Below are positions 29,777 to 41,488 of a stretch of DNA of 44,831 nucleotides, piece by piece. The stretch is from Candidatus Woesearchaeota archaeon CG_4_10_14_0_2_um_filter_33_13 (GTDB taxonomy: Archaea; Nanobdellota; Nanobdellia; Woesearchaeales; GW2011-AR9): assembly GCA_002792115.1 (NCBI GenBank), contig PFNQ01000001.1, positions 1 through 44,831 on the forward strand, written 5' to 3'. The position numbers and the translations under genes are program-made. The notes beneath the pieces are model-generated. The model worked only from the letters and a program-made list of their open reading frames with translations. It did no database searches and had not been told where the DNA came from. Each line of letters starts with the position of its first letter. Within the stretch, counting starts at the first letter, position 1.

Positions 29777-29869
29777 AAATCAAGATAATATCTTTTGCTT
29801 TATATTTCTTACTTTATTTTGCTTATACCAGATGGATGATATCTAGAAAAAAATATGGACCTGCCCGGA

Positions 29870-29883
29870 TTTGCAGTTGAACA
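29870..29883 (-). other. tRNA BHB intron 2 in T-loop (59/60), 14 nt
   Basis: Central helix TGCA/TGCA, 3-nt bulges ATT and AAT, outer helix the T stem CCCGG/CCGGG, minimal inner helix GT/AC with loop TCA. Removal turns a 21-nt T-loop into a 7-nt loop. Position 59/60 introns are known mainly from Thermoproteales. Confidence 0.72.
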
Positions 29884-29905
29884 ATTGCACCGGGGACCTC
29901 CCGCG

Positions 29906-29926
29906 TTCTAATCTCCAAGCGGAGAA
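29906..29926 (-). other. tRNA BHB intron 1 (37/38), 21 nt
   Basis: Central helix CTGA/TTAG (one G-U), bulges CTT and AAC, inner helix TCTCC/GGAGA with loop GCTT, outer helix the anticodon stem. Cutting after base 2 of each bulge places the intron exactly at canonical position 37/38. Confidence 0.8.
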
Positions 29927-29951
29927 AGTCAGGCGGACGTCATAGCTACTA

Positions 29952-30057
29952 GACTACAGGTCCATGTTTCATGGGGCTGAGCGATTTTTTATGAGTGAAC
30001 GCCTCATAATCTATCAAATGGATTTCCATTTGCTATCTCGACTACAGGTCCATGTTT
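29952..30057. repeat. 18-bp direct repeat containing the tRNA 5' end
   Basis: GACTACAGGTCCATGTTT occurs at 29952-29969 and again at 30040-30057, 88 bp apart. It comprises the first 12 bases of the tRNA plus 6 bases of its leader. Similarity extends a little into the D-arm (GCTA nearby in both). The second copy sits upstream of the tRNA in its direction of transcription. It could be an att-like integration scar or an unfinished duplication. Confidence 0.85.
30015..30032. repeat. Perfect 8-bp inverted repeat
   Basis: CAAATGGA, two bases, TCCATTTG between the tRNA 5' duplicate and the tRNA. Located between the two copies of the 18-bp repeat; role unknown, possibly an operator or a small hairpin. 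Confidence 0.7.
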
Positions 30058-38890: not shown

Positions 38891-39940
38891 ATGGAAATTA
38901 CAAAGGAATTAGTTGAATGTGTTGGTTTGTGGTTGGCTGAGGGAGATAACAAAACAAATCAAGAAATAACTTTTACTAATAACTGTTTAGAACTAATATT
39001 GTTTTTTCAAGAGAACATTAGTAATGTGTATTTTGGTAAAAACAAACCTAGGTAGTATGTTTATTCTTCAACGCCAAAGATTTTAATTACTAATCTAAAT
39101 GGATTAACAATTAGAAATTATTCTGATGATTGGGCAAGGAAAACGTATTATATCTACAAATTAGCAGATATTAATTTTGTTAAAGAATGGAAACAGATTG
39201 TAACTAAAATTAAAACTAATAAGATCTATTATCCTGAAATCTTAAGAGGTATTTTTGCAGGAGAAGGAAATGTTAAACATGATTTTAAGAATAATAATTC
39301 TCGTAATTTAAGAATTGCTTCTAGTGTGAGGAATGAGTATATTGAGAAACTATTGACTTATTTTGAATTTCCAATAAAATTTGATCAAAACAAGAGAGCT
39401 TATTGGATTACTGGAAGATATTTAGAAAAAGCTCAGAAAATTAACATTGCATCTTTACACCCAGAAAAAGAAGCAAGATTTAGAAAGATGATATATTCAG
39501 TTAAAGAAAAACACTACTCTCCTTACGAATTTCGCACGTTGATTTTAGGAGAACTTAATTCTTTTAAAACTACTAAACAATTATCACTTTTGTTTAGTAA
39601 ATCTGATGTTTATACTTTAGAAGTTCTTTCTATTTTAAAGAAAGAACATATTATTGATCATATTAAAACAAAACAGGGTTCTTTTTGGGCAAAGAATGAT
39701 CTTATCAAACAATATCAGAAAACTGAAATGTTTGAAATATTACGCAATCTTAATAAGTACGTAAATCTATCAAAGACTGGGAGTGCAGTTGGAATGGCTA
39801 GAAAAGCCATTGTAAGTAGGCTATTAAGATATCAAAAAGAGGGAGTGGTATCTTATATAGCAAGTAAGCGCTCATGGAAATTGACAGAAAAAGGTAAGGT
39901 TATTGTAGGGGTTGACGAAGCCGGGAGTTTTAGCAACTAA
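38891..39940 (+). pseudogene. LAGLIDADG homing endonuclease ORF with in-frame UAG, fused to RNase HII exon 1
   Basis: Two LAGLIDADG-type motifs: VGLWLAEGD (near residue 11) and LRGIFAGEGN (near 120), about 110 residues apart, as in double-motif homing endonucleases. A C-terminal winged helix follows (AIVSRLLRYQKEGVV, then RSWKLTEKGK). One TAG at 39053-39055 falls between the motifs (NKPR, stop, YVYSS) without a frameshift; without it one chain would be read to the end. The last residues are VIVGVDEAG, the start of RNase HII, and the TAA at 39938-39940 lies in the intron at 39928-39958. An ATG at 39326 could start a fragment. No function was recognised in the 217 nt before it. Confidence 0.72.
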
Positions 39941-40589
39941 TTTGTTGTTAAACCCGTGAGGTCCAGTTCTCGGCCCTTTAGTTATGGTAGCTTTAGCAGT
40001 AAAAGAGGAGAACATCAAAAAATTGGAATGGATGGGAGTTAAAGATTCTAAGTTGTTAAGTTCTTCAGTGAGGGAAGAAATCTTTGATCAATTAAGAGAT
40101 GTTGTTGAAGATTTTAGAATTGAGGTAGTGGAACCGGATGCAATTGACCTTTCTTTAGGAGAAGCAGAAAGTAACTTGAATTGGTTAGAAGCAGACACTT
40201 CTGCTAGATTAGTTTCAGAATTAAATCCGGATAAGATTATTGTTGATTGTCCTAGTGTTAATATTCCTGCTTACAAGGCATATTTTGAATCCAGGTTAAG
40301 TAAGGCGGTTAAAGATAAAGCAGAATTAGTTGTTGAACATAAAGCAGACTTTAATTATATTGTTGTGGCTGCTGCTTCTGTAATCGCAAAGGTAATTAGA
40401 GATCGGCAAATTGATAAAATTAAAAATGAGATTGGTATTGATTTTGGTTCTGGATATATGTCGGATAAAAAAACACAAGATTTTTTAGAGAAGTATCATG
40501 ACACCTATCCTCACTTGTTTAGAAAGAAATGGAAATCGTACACTAATGTTTTAGAAAAGAAGAAGCAAAAAAGTTTAGGTGAGTTTTAA
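39881..40589 (+). CDS. rnhB: Ribonuclease HII, split by a 31-nt BHB intron
   Basis: Spliced coding length from the TTG at 39881 to 39927 plus 39959-40589 is 678 nt, 225 residues, normal for RNase HII. GVDEAGRGPVLGPLV is restored only by removal of 39928-39958 (Asp-Glu active-site pair in DEAG; GRG motif). Later motifs are intact: VKDSKLL, KIIVDCPS with the third catalytic Asp, and HKADFNYIVVAAASVIAKVIRDRQ with the fourth. It cleaves RNA of RNA-DNA hybrids and single ribonucleotides in DNA. The start is doubtful: no ATG is present, and the frame is open into the homing endonuclease. Unspliced message stops 4 codons after DEAG. RNase HIII follows 89 nt later. Confidence 0.85.
39928..39958 (+). 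other. 31-nt BHB-type intron in rnhB
   Basis: Central helix CGGG (39922-39925)/CCCG (39953-39956), 3-nt bulges AGT (39926-39928) and TGA (39957-39959), inner helix TTTAGCAAC/GTTGTTAAA with one G-U (39929-39937, 39944-39952), loop TAATTT. Cutting after base 2 of each bulge joins GCC GGG AG with A GGT CCA, encoding AGRGP. The intron is not a multiple of 3 and holds a TAA. The exon-exon outer helix is weak. Confidence 0.85.
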
Positions 40590-40649
40590 TTTTTAGTTTT
40601 ATTGAATAGTCGTATTGAATAGTTCTATAAACAATGAAATGATTAGTTT

Positions 40650-40657
40650 TTTATATC
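40650..40657 (+). promoter_or_regulatory. TATA box of rnhC
   Basis: TTTATATC begins 29 nt upstream of the ATG at 40679, indicating a leaderless transcript independent of rnhB. Confidence 0.6.
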
Positions 40658-40678
40658 CTAACTTATTACTTATGCTTT

Positions 40679-41488
40679 ATGGTTGTTTTTACTAACGTAA
40701 CAGAAAAGGATTTGGAAAGGCTATACCAAAAAGGGTTCTCTAAAGAAGAACCTAAAACAATTTATGAAGAAGTTCGTTTACGTTATAAGGATGTTAATTT
40801 AATTTTGTATAACTCTGGGAAGCTATTATTGCACGGAAAAGAAGATTCTGTTAACCAAGTTGCTGAGATAATTGAAAAGATGGGTGTTGGAGAAAGAGTT
40901 AAAGTAGAAAAATTTCGTAAAGAGACCGGATGGATTATTGGTAGTGACGAGTCTTTGAAAGGTGATACTTTTGGTGGATTAGTGGTTGCAGCTGTTAAAG
41001 CTGATGATAAAGGAAGGGCATTACTTCAAGAATTGGGGGTTGCGGATAGTAAAACATTAAGTGATAAAGAAATTATTCTAATGGCAGAAAAGATTCGTAA
41101 AATCGTTCCTTGTGAAGTGAAGAGTATTTTGCCTTTAGAGTACAACCAAAATGGAGAGGTTACAAAAATGCTTAACCATTTACATCAAGAAACAGCAAAT
41201 TATCTTACTCCTGGTAAGCACGTTGTGGATAAATATCCTGGTTGCAATGTTGGTGATATCCAAGAAGAGAAAGCTGAATCTAAGTATGTTGAAGTTGCCG
41301 CGGCTTCTGTATTGGCCAGAGCTGGAGCGTTAAATCAATTAAATTATCTTAGTACTAAAGCAGGGTTTAATGTTCCTAAGGGAAGTACGCATGTTAAACT
41401 CGCTTTAGCTGAGTTAAAAGAACGACGATTAGAATTTAAGGAGTTTGTTAAAACTAGTTTTTCTAATGTCAGGGAGTTCTTACTTTAA
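40679..41488 (+). CDS. rnhC: Ribonuclease HIII-like protein
   Basis: 269 residues. The N-terminal 80 match the TBP-like domain of RNase HIII (EEVRLRYKDVNLILYNSGKLLLHGK), which grips the hybrid. The catalytic part follows: WIIGSDESLKGDTFGGLVVAAV, aligning to the GSDExxxGDxFG motif of RNase HIII with its Asp and Glu; VADSKTLSDKE; KHVVDKYPG; and KYVEVAAASVLARAGAL. It should hydrolyse RNA in RNA-DNA hybrids, overlapping with RNase HII. RNase HIII is mainly bacterial, and having both side by side in an archaeon is unusual. Confidence 0.82.
   Translation: MVVFTNVTEKDLERLYQKGFSKEEPKTIYEEVRLRYKDVNLILYNSGKLLLHGKEDSVNQVAEIIEKMGVGERVKVEKFRKETGWIIGSDESLKGDTFGGLVVAAVKADDKGRALLQELGVADSKTLSDKEIILMAEKIRKIVPCEVKSILPLEYNQNGEVTKMLNHLHQETANYLTPGKHVVDKYPGCNVGDIQEEKAESKYVEVAAASVLARAGALNQLNYLSTKAGFNVPKGSTHVKLALAELKERRLEFKEFVKTSFSNVREFLL

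Follow-up and report, generated by a model that had tools for sequence, protein, structure and literature searches.

The window, a 44,831-nucleotide stretch of a Woesearchaeota MAG (a DPANN-like genome, as had been surmised), carries a tRNA-Val(GAC) gene on its minus strand. A sequence-only reading had proposed that this gene is interrupted by two archaeal BHB introns, at 37/38 and 59/60, and this assignment was confirmed by BHB geometry and by comparison with intron-less orthologs. The anticodon GAC lies within exon 1, at 29930-29928 on the minus strand. The features of the locus, together with one in the rnhB gene of the same window, are as follows.

29856..29963, minus strand: tRNA-Val(GAC), 108 nt, two introns (RF00005, 39.3 bits; spliced form as in intron-less orthologs)
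29927..29963, minus strand: exon 1, tRNA nt 1-37 (100% block 1-37 in the ortholog search)
29906..29926, minus strand: intron 1, 21 nt at 37/38, strict BHB with H CUGA/UUAG (BHB geometry, fold)
29884..29905, minus strand: exon 2, tRNA nt 38-59 (ortholog match, BHB geometry)
29870..29883, minus strand: intron 2, in the T-loop, 14 nt at 59/60, strict BHB (fold, geometry, covariation)
29856..29869, minus strand: exon 3, tRNA nt 60-73 (ortholog alignment)
29847..29853, minus strand: T7 run 3′ of the gene, likely terminator (sequence)
29984..29993, minus strand: TATA-like box CATAAAAAAT, A/T-rich, ending 20 nt before tRNA nt 1 and thus about 20-30 nt upstream (sequence)
29973..30039, minus strand: short repeat flanked by the truncated and the intact tRNA 5′ end (also present at other tRNA genes)
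30040..30057, minus strand: partial tRNA 5′-end copy (AAACATGGACCTGTAGTC) with its own TATA-like box upstream (sequence comparison)
39928..39958, plus strand: 31-nt insert of BHB type in rnhB (H CGGG/CCCG, h′ of 9 bp)

The Rfam model RF00005 reached its score on tRNA-Val(GAC) solely when two long inserts were allowed, and the gene was missed by ARAGORN, by cmscan at the gathering threshold with default filters and by our first whole-genome tRNA scan. These three scans are a warning that standard tRNA finders overlook twice-interrupted genes of this sort.

Both introns have the strict geometry that had been claimed for them. In each case two 3-nt bulges lie on opposite strands of a 4-bp central helix (H, 4/4 pairs), with a 5-bp outer helix (h) in the exons and an inner helix (h′) in the intron. 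In intron 1, CUGA at positions 32-35 pairs with UUAG, the bulges are CU/U and AA/C, and h′ consists of 5 bp (UCUCC/GGAGA) with a GCUU loop. In intron 2, UGCA at positions 54-57 pairs with UGCA, the bulges are AU/U and AA/U, and h′ is a minimal 2 bp (GU/AC) with the 3-nt loop UCA. Removal of both introns leaves a standard tRNA of the expected 73 nt, which aligned without gaps over 73/73 positions, at 89-90% identity, with the uninterrupted tRNA-Val(GAC) genes of four relatives (G031, G006, G009 and G007); there were additional shorter matches beyond these full-length orthologs. In the orthologs the T-loop has its normal 7 nt. A TGCAA direct repeat makes the phase of the 14-nt removal ambiguous, and the alternatives yield the T-loops UGCAAAU or UGCAAUU, each of which is present in orthologs. 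Strict BHB geometry selects UGCAAUU, and with it site 59/60, where the second intron had been placed. The earlier statement that 14 nt is among the shortest possible lengths was too strong: the reviewed lengths of archaeal tRNA introns are 11-129 nt, with medians of 12-25 (PMC4090602), and four other host tRNA genes (Arg-TCG, Thr-CGT, His and Phe) have introns of 14-15 nt, which makes this length unremarkable.

Introns are present in 15/19 resolved archaeal-type tRNA genes of the host (19 introns, with two in each of four genes), an incomplete count that comes from targeted searches and the window. They occupy sites 37/38, 30/31, about 28-30 and 59/60, and several, in tRNA-Lys for instance, have a 3/4 central helix, which corresponds to a relaxed BHB. 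The host tRNA-Val(TAC) (G000:C5) is also interrupted at 59/60, by a 31-nt intron with H UUCG/CGAA, and contains a 17-nt intron at 37/38 (positions by eye). At G000:C2 4125-4630, tRNAs for Pro, Tyr and Gln and a Phe-like one form a cluster without introns that is unlike the rest of the host tRNAs, and this contig may be viral or foreign. A tRNA-Thr at G000:C28 37644-37716 has the anticodon AGU; an A34 in this tRNA is unusual in archaea.

The BHB-type intron that had been suggested for rnhB was likewise upheld, as removing the 31-nt insert restores GVDEAGRGPVLGP / GVDEAGRGPVLGPLV. Upstream of rnhB, a frame at 39200-39940 on the plus strand reads through GIFAGEGN and is reminiscent of a LAGLIDADG homing endonuclease in its sequence; a 204-aa piece of it had no Pfam match. 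Two adjoining RNase HII-family genes lie at 39984-41488 on the plus strand.

A short repeat element separates the intact tRNA-Val(GAC) 5′ end from the truncated copy. Host tRNA-Thr genes (G000:C11 and C28) show this arrangement too, as do Thr, Val or Ala tRNAs of G006, G010, G032, G035 and G175. The copies in G035 are in tandem with a 126-bp period, and diverged copies are found at other places. The repeat looks like a small mobile element that favours tRNA 5′ ends. It had no Rfam match as a known RNA. A second stem proposed for the element was dropped (83% of cells paired, covariation no better than in shuffles, six sequences), and no structure is claimed. We also considered the partial 5′ copy as evidence of a third intron or a split tRNA; this was rejected because no phase gave a usable BHB (outer helix of 0-1 bp) and the downstream tRNA is complete.

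Introns at 59/60 had been described as a feature mainly of Thermoproteales. They are common in the Woesearchaeota family of the host as well, where we found 22 in seven genomes (14-81 nt in length), several of them orthologs and hence not independent; the one in the host tRNA-Val(TAC) comes on top of these. The frequency of these introns is biased because part of the set came from tRNA loci picked for matches that ended close to the T-loop; this choice does not aim at the 59/60 pairing test. The central helix was 4/4 in 14 of the 22 and at least 3/4 in all 22. Shuffled introns gave on average 0.49 with 4/4 and 3.9 with at least 3/4, and 0/2000 shuffles attained the observed 4/4 count. When the intron helix strands were permuted among genes, the mean was 72.7 pairs versus the 80 observed, a value reached in 0/20000 permutations. 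A random 4-bp H at a fixed site is expected at about 2% for one intron; the pattern seen across the 22 far exceeds chance. Bases 54-57 of the exon T-loop vary together with the intron, in combinations that can be recognized by eye: UUCA with UGAA, UGCA with UGCA or UGUG, and UUCG with CGAA. Judged by sequence, the T-loop intron of tRNA-Val(GAC) is best classed as one member of a large and variable same-site class across the tRNAs of this family. Among the Val-GAC genes of relatives, those of G010, G012 and G032 have a 59/60 intron and those of G013 and G017 have D-loop introns; some tRNAs of relatives have three introns, for example tRNA-Ile and tRNA-Met of G010. An attempt to map gain or loss of the T-loop intron of tRNA-Val onto a tree of EndA was abandoned, as the tree did not resolve and had no starred branches. 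In a literature search that covered few subscription papers, the only paper found for Woesearchaeota tRNA introns concerned a group I rRNA intron.

The mature tRNA-Val(GAC) sequence has A18 (29947, minus strand) together with G55 (29888, minus strand). A G18/U55 elbow pair is near-universal in tRNAs. In a set of 29 Val-type tRNAs that omits the host Val-TAC, A18 occurs with G55 in 12, and the other 17 have U55, with G18 where the D-loop was readable (two of the 17 are offset by a shorter D-loop and one is without the D-loop stretch). None was mixed (Fisher's test on the 2x2 table, p = 7e-7, relatedness ignored). A scan keyed on A18 alone identified two genomes outside the order, the T-loops of which likewise have G55, and the host tRNA-Thr(CGU) also carries the swap. 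We found no report of this swap in the literature. With the A18/G55 combination, nature provides a test of the G18-pseudouridine55 elbow pair.

According to reviews, the spread of tRNA introns to non-canonical sites is linked with changes in the endonuclease, namely the (alpha-beta)2 or epsilon-2 forms and the CSL/ASL loops (PMC4033280, PMC6379350, PMC12397907). A PF01974 search identified one EndA gene in the host and matches in 38/40 genomes, with one alpha-type gene per Woesearchaeota-family genome that had a match. In G017 the EndA match (C13, 12297-12618) was in two adjacent/overlapping pieces, which look like one interrupted gene; a frameshift, an assembly error or an insert are possible causes. 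The host EndA has about 212 aa, a single catalytic unit and conserved FRVY, DHA and HSTKK, and its best relatives among named genomes are from Woesearchaeota MAGs. Its full-length match to 1A79 fits the alpha4 enzymes, which have a single alpha of roughly 180 aa and a Tyr-His-Lys triad, and it may form a homotetramer of their kind. No separate structural beta-subunit gene was found in the family genomes with a match. The crenarchaeal-specific loop with its Lys-Pro-Arg (A. pernix K44-R46), which is required for broad specificity of the A. pernix enzyme (PMC6379350, PMC12397907), had no counterpart in the host protein (the A. pernix insert reads EKPRGADF); some (alpha-beta)2 enzymes are themselves without this loop. 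Nor did the host protein show the features of the epsilon-2 (ARMAN) enzyme (about 390 aa, three units, ARMAN-specific loop). Family EndAs carry a lysine-rich N-terminal extension, which several order-level relatives are without; as a guess, this extension might replace the missing loop. An RtcB gene is present in the host. In G037 (C27, 3004-4343), rtcB is in two open pieces with an 89-nt gap between them, possibly an mRNA intron.

The host has a single alpha-type EndA gene, without a beta partner or the crenarchaeal-specific loop, and so does not encode a broad-specificity enzyme of several subunits. Thus the earlier suggestion of a broad-specificity endonuclease survives in part: the multi-subunit Thermoproteales kind was not borne out, and relaxed BHBs elsewhere in the host hint at some breadth. 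The T-loop intron itself demands no multi-subunit enzyme because its BHB is strict, and such a BHB at 59/60 would suit a narrow enzyme. The real puzzle is the relaxed BHBs of the host genome, as cutting at relaxed sites is unexplained when the alpha-only EndA of M. jannaschii is classed as narrow (PMC6379350).

Considering the sequence, the geometry, the intron-less orthologs, the exon-intron covariation and the gene content, we infer, with a probability of about 0.88, that the BHB introns at 37/38 and 59/60 of the host tRNA-Val(GAC) are spliced by the lone alpha-type EndA and RtcB. Once the gene is transcribed, T-loop bases 54-57 of the precursor would pair with the four bases directly before the last two intron bases, giving a 4-bp helix stacked on the T-stem and flanked by two 3-nt bulges. 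As gene content suggests, the single alpha-type EndA would cut both bulges and RtcB would ligate the exons, yielding a 73-nt tRNA that is presumably functional. T-loop introns are apparently excised by one simple enzyme that was thought to be limited to ordinary introns. The 2-bp inner helix of intron 2 is a point against this explanation. Together with the shortness of the insert, it would fit a tRNA in which the canonical intron alone is removed and the 14 nt stay as a tolerated long T-loop. Such retention is extremely improbable: the 7-nt T-loops of the orthologs speak against it, as do the inserts of 18-81 nt with covarying BHBs at the same site of other tRNAs, and the elbow should not tolerate a T-loop of 21 nt.

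It is also very unlikely that this copy is a decaying pseudogene whose working counterpart lies in a missing part of the genome. An assembly completeness of 92% and the truncated tRNA 5′ copy immediately upstream would both agree with this reading. However, no stem is disrupted, the BHBs of the two introns are strict, and the gene has a T-run on its 3′ side and a TATA-like box on its 5′ side. Val-GAC genes of relatives have similar introns, and no second Val-GAC gene was found in the host assembly; an intact one, with the present copy silent, had been named as what would refute the original proposal. It is unlikely as well that, as in Nanoarchaeum equitans and Thermoproteales, a broad-specificity heteromer processes these introns, its beta subunit having diverged beyond detection. 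In favor of this, the EndA of N. equitans, a member of the phylum to which the host belongs, is of the (alpha-beta)2 type (PMC6379350), and the host genome contains relaxed BHBs. However, each family genome with a match has one PF01974 gene (the G017 pieces being counted as one), the host EndA has no CSL, and the host EndA query detected the N. equitans beta chain at 4e-16. Since that beta is similar enough to the host alpha for detection, a host beta gene should have shown.

Splicing by the lone alpha-type enzyme raises a wider proposition, for and against which we see even odds: that the single-gene EndA of this family, without broad-specificity loops, serves its rife T-loop, D-loop and 30/31 introns, strict and relaxed alike. 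If true, intron diversity would no longer be tied, as has been proposed, to endonucleases with several subunits or with such loops. A DPANN family with many non-canonical introns and only an alpha-type EndA therefore makes the endonuclease-intron rule directly testable.

The 59/60 introns of Thermoproteales and Crenarchaeota (PMC4090602, PMC4033280) share their site and BHB logic with those of the host, and in both groups there are two or three introns per tRNA, with sizes within 11-129 nt. Unlike the crenarchaeal organisms with such introns, the host is a DPANN archaeon whose one EndA is alpha-type and lacks the crenarchaeal-specific loop. N. equitans and the host belong to the same phylum and have non-canonical intron sites and reduced genomes in common, whereas N. 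equitans has an (alpha-beta)2 EndA and split tRNAs and the host is without a detected beta gene, nor was a split tRNA seen among the host loci inspected. The closest enzyme comparison is with the alpha4 EndA of M. jannaschii (1A79), which matches the host protein end to end as a single alpha, gap-free in the catalytic part, with a CSL in neither. In contrast to the M. jannaschii protein, Woesearchaeota-family EndAs bear the lysine-rich N-terminal extension, and the M. jannaschii enzyme is classed as narrow (PMC6379350), whereas in the host family BHBs are found in the T-loop, in the D-loop and at 30/31, and some are relaxed. A twice-interrupted tRNA with a 59/60 BHB intron is of a known kind; within the literature searched, what looks new about these introns is the lineage, how abundant they are and the enzyme with which they are paired.
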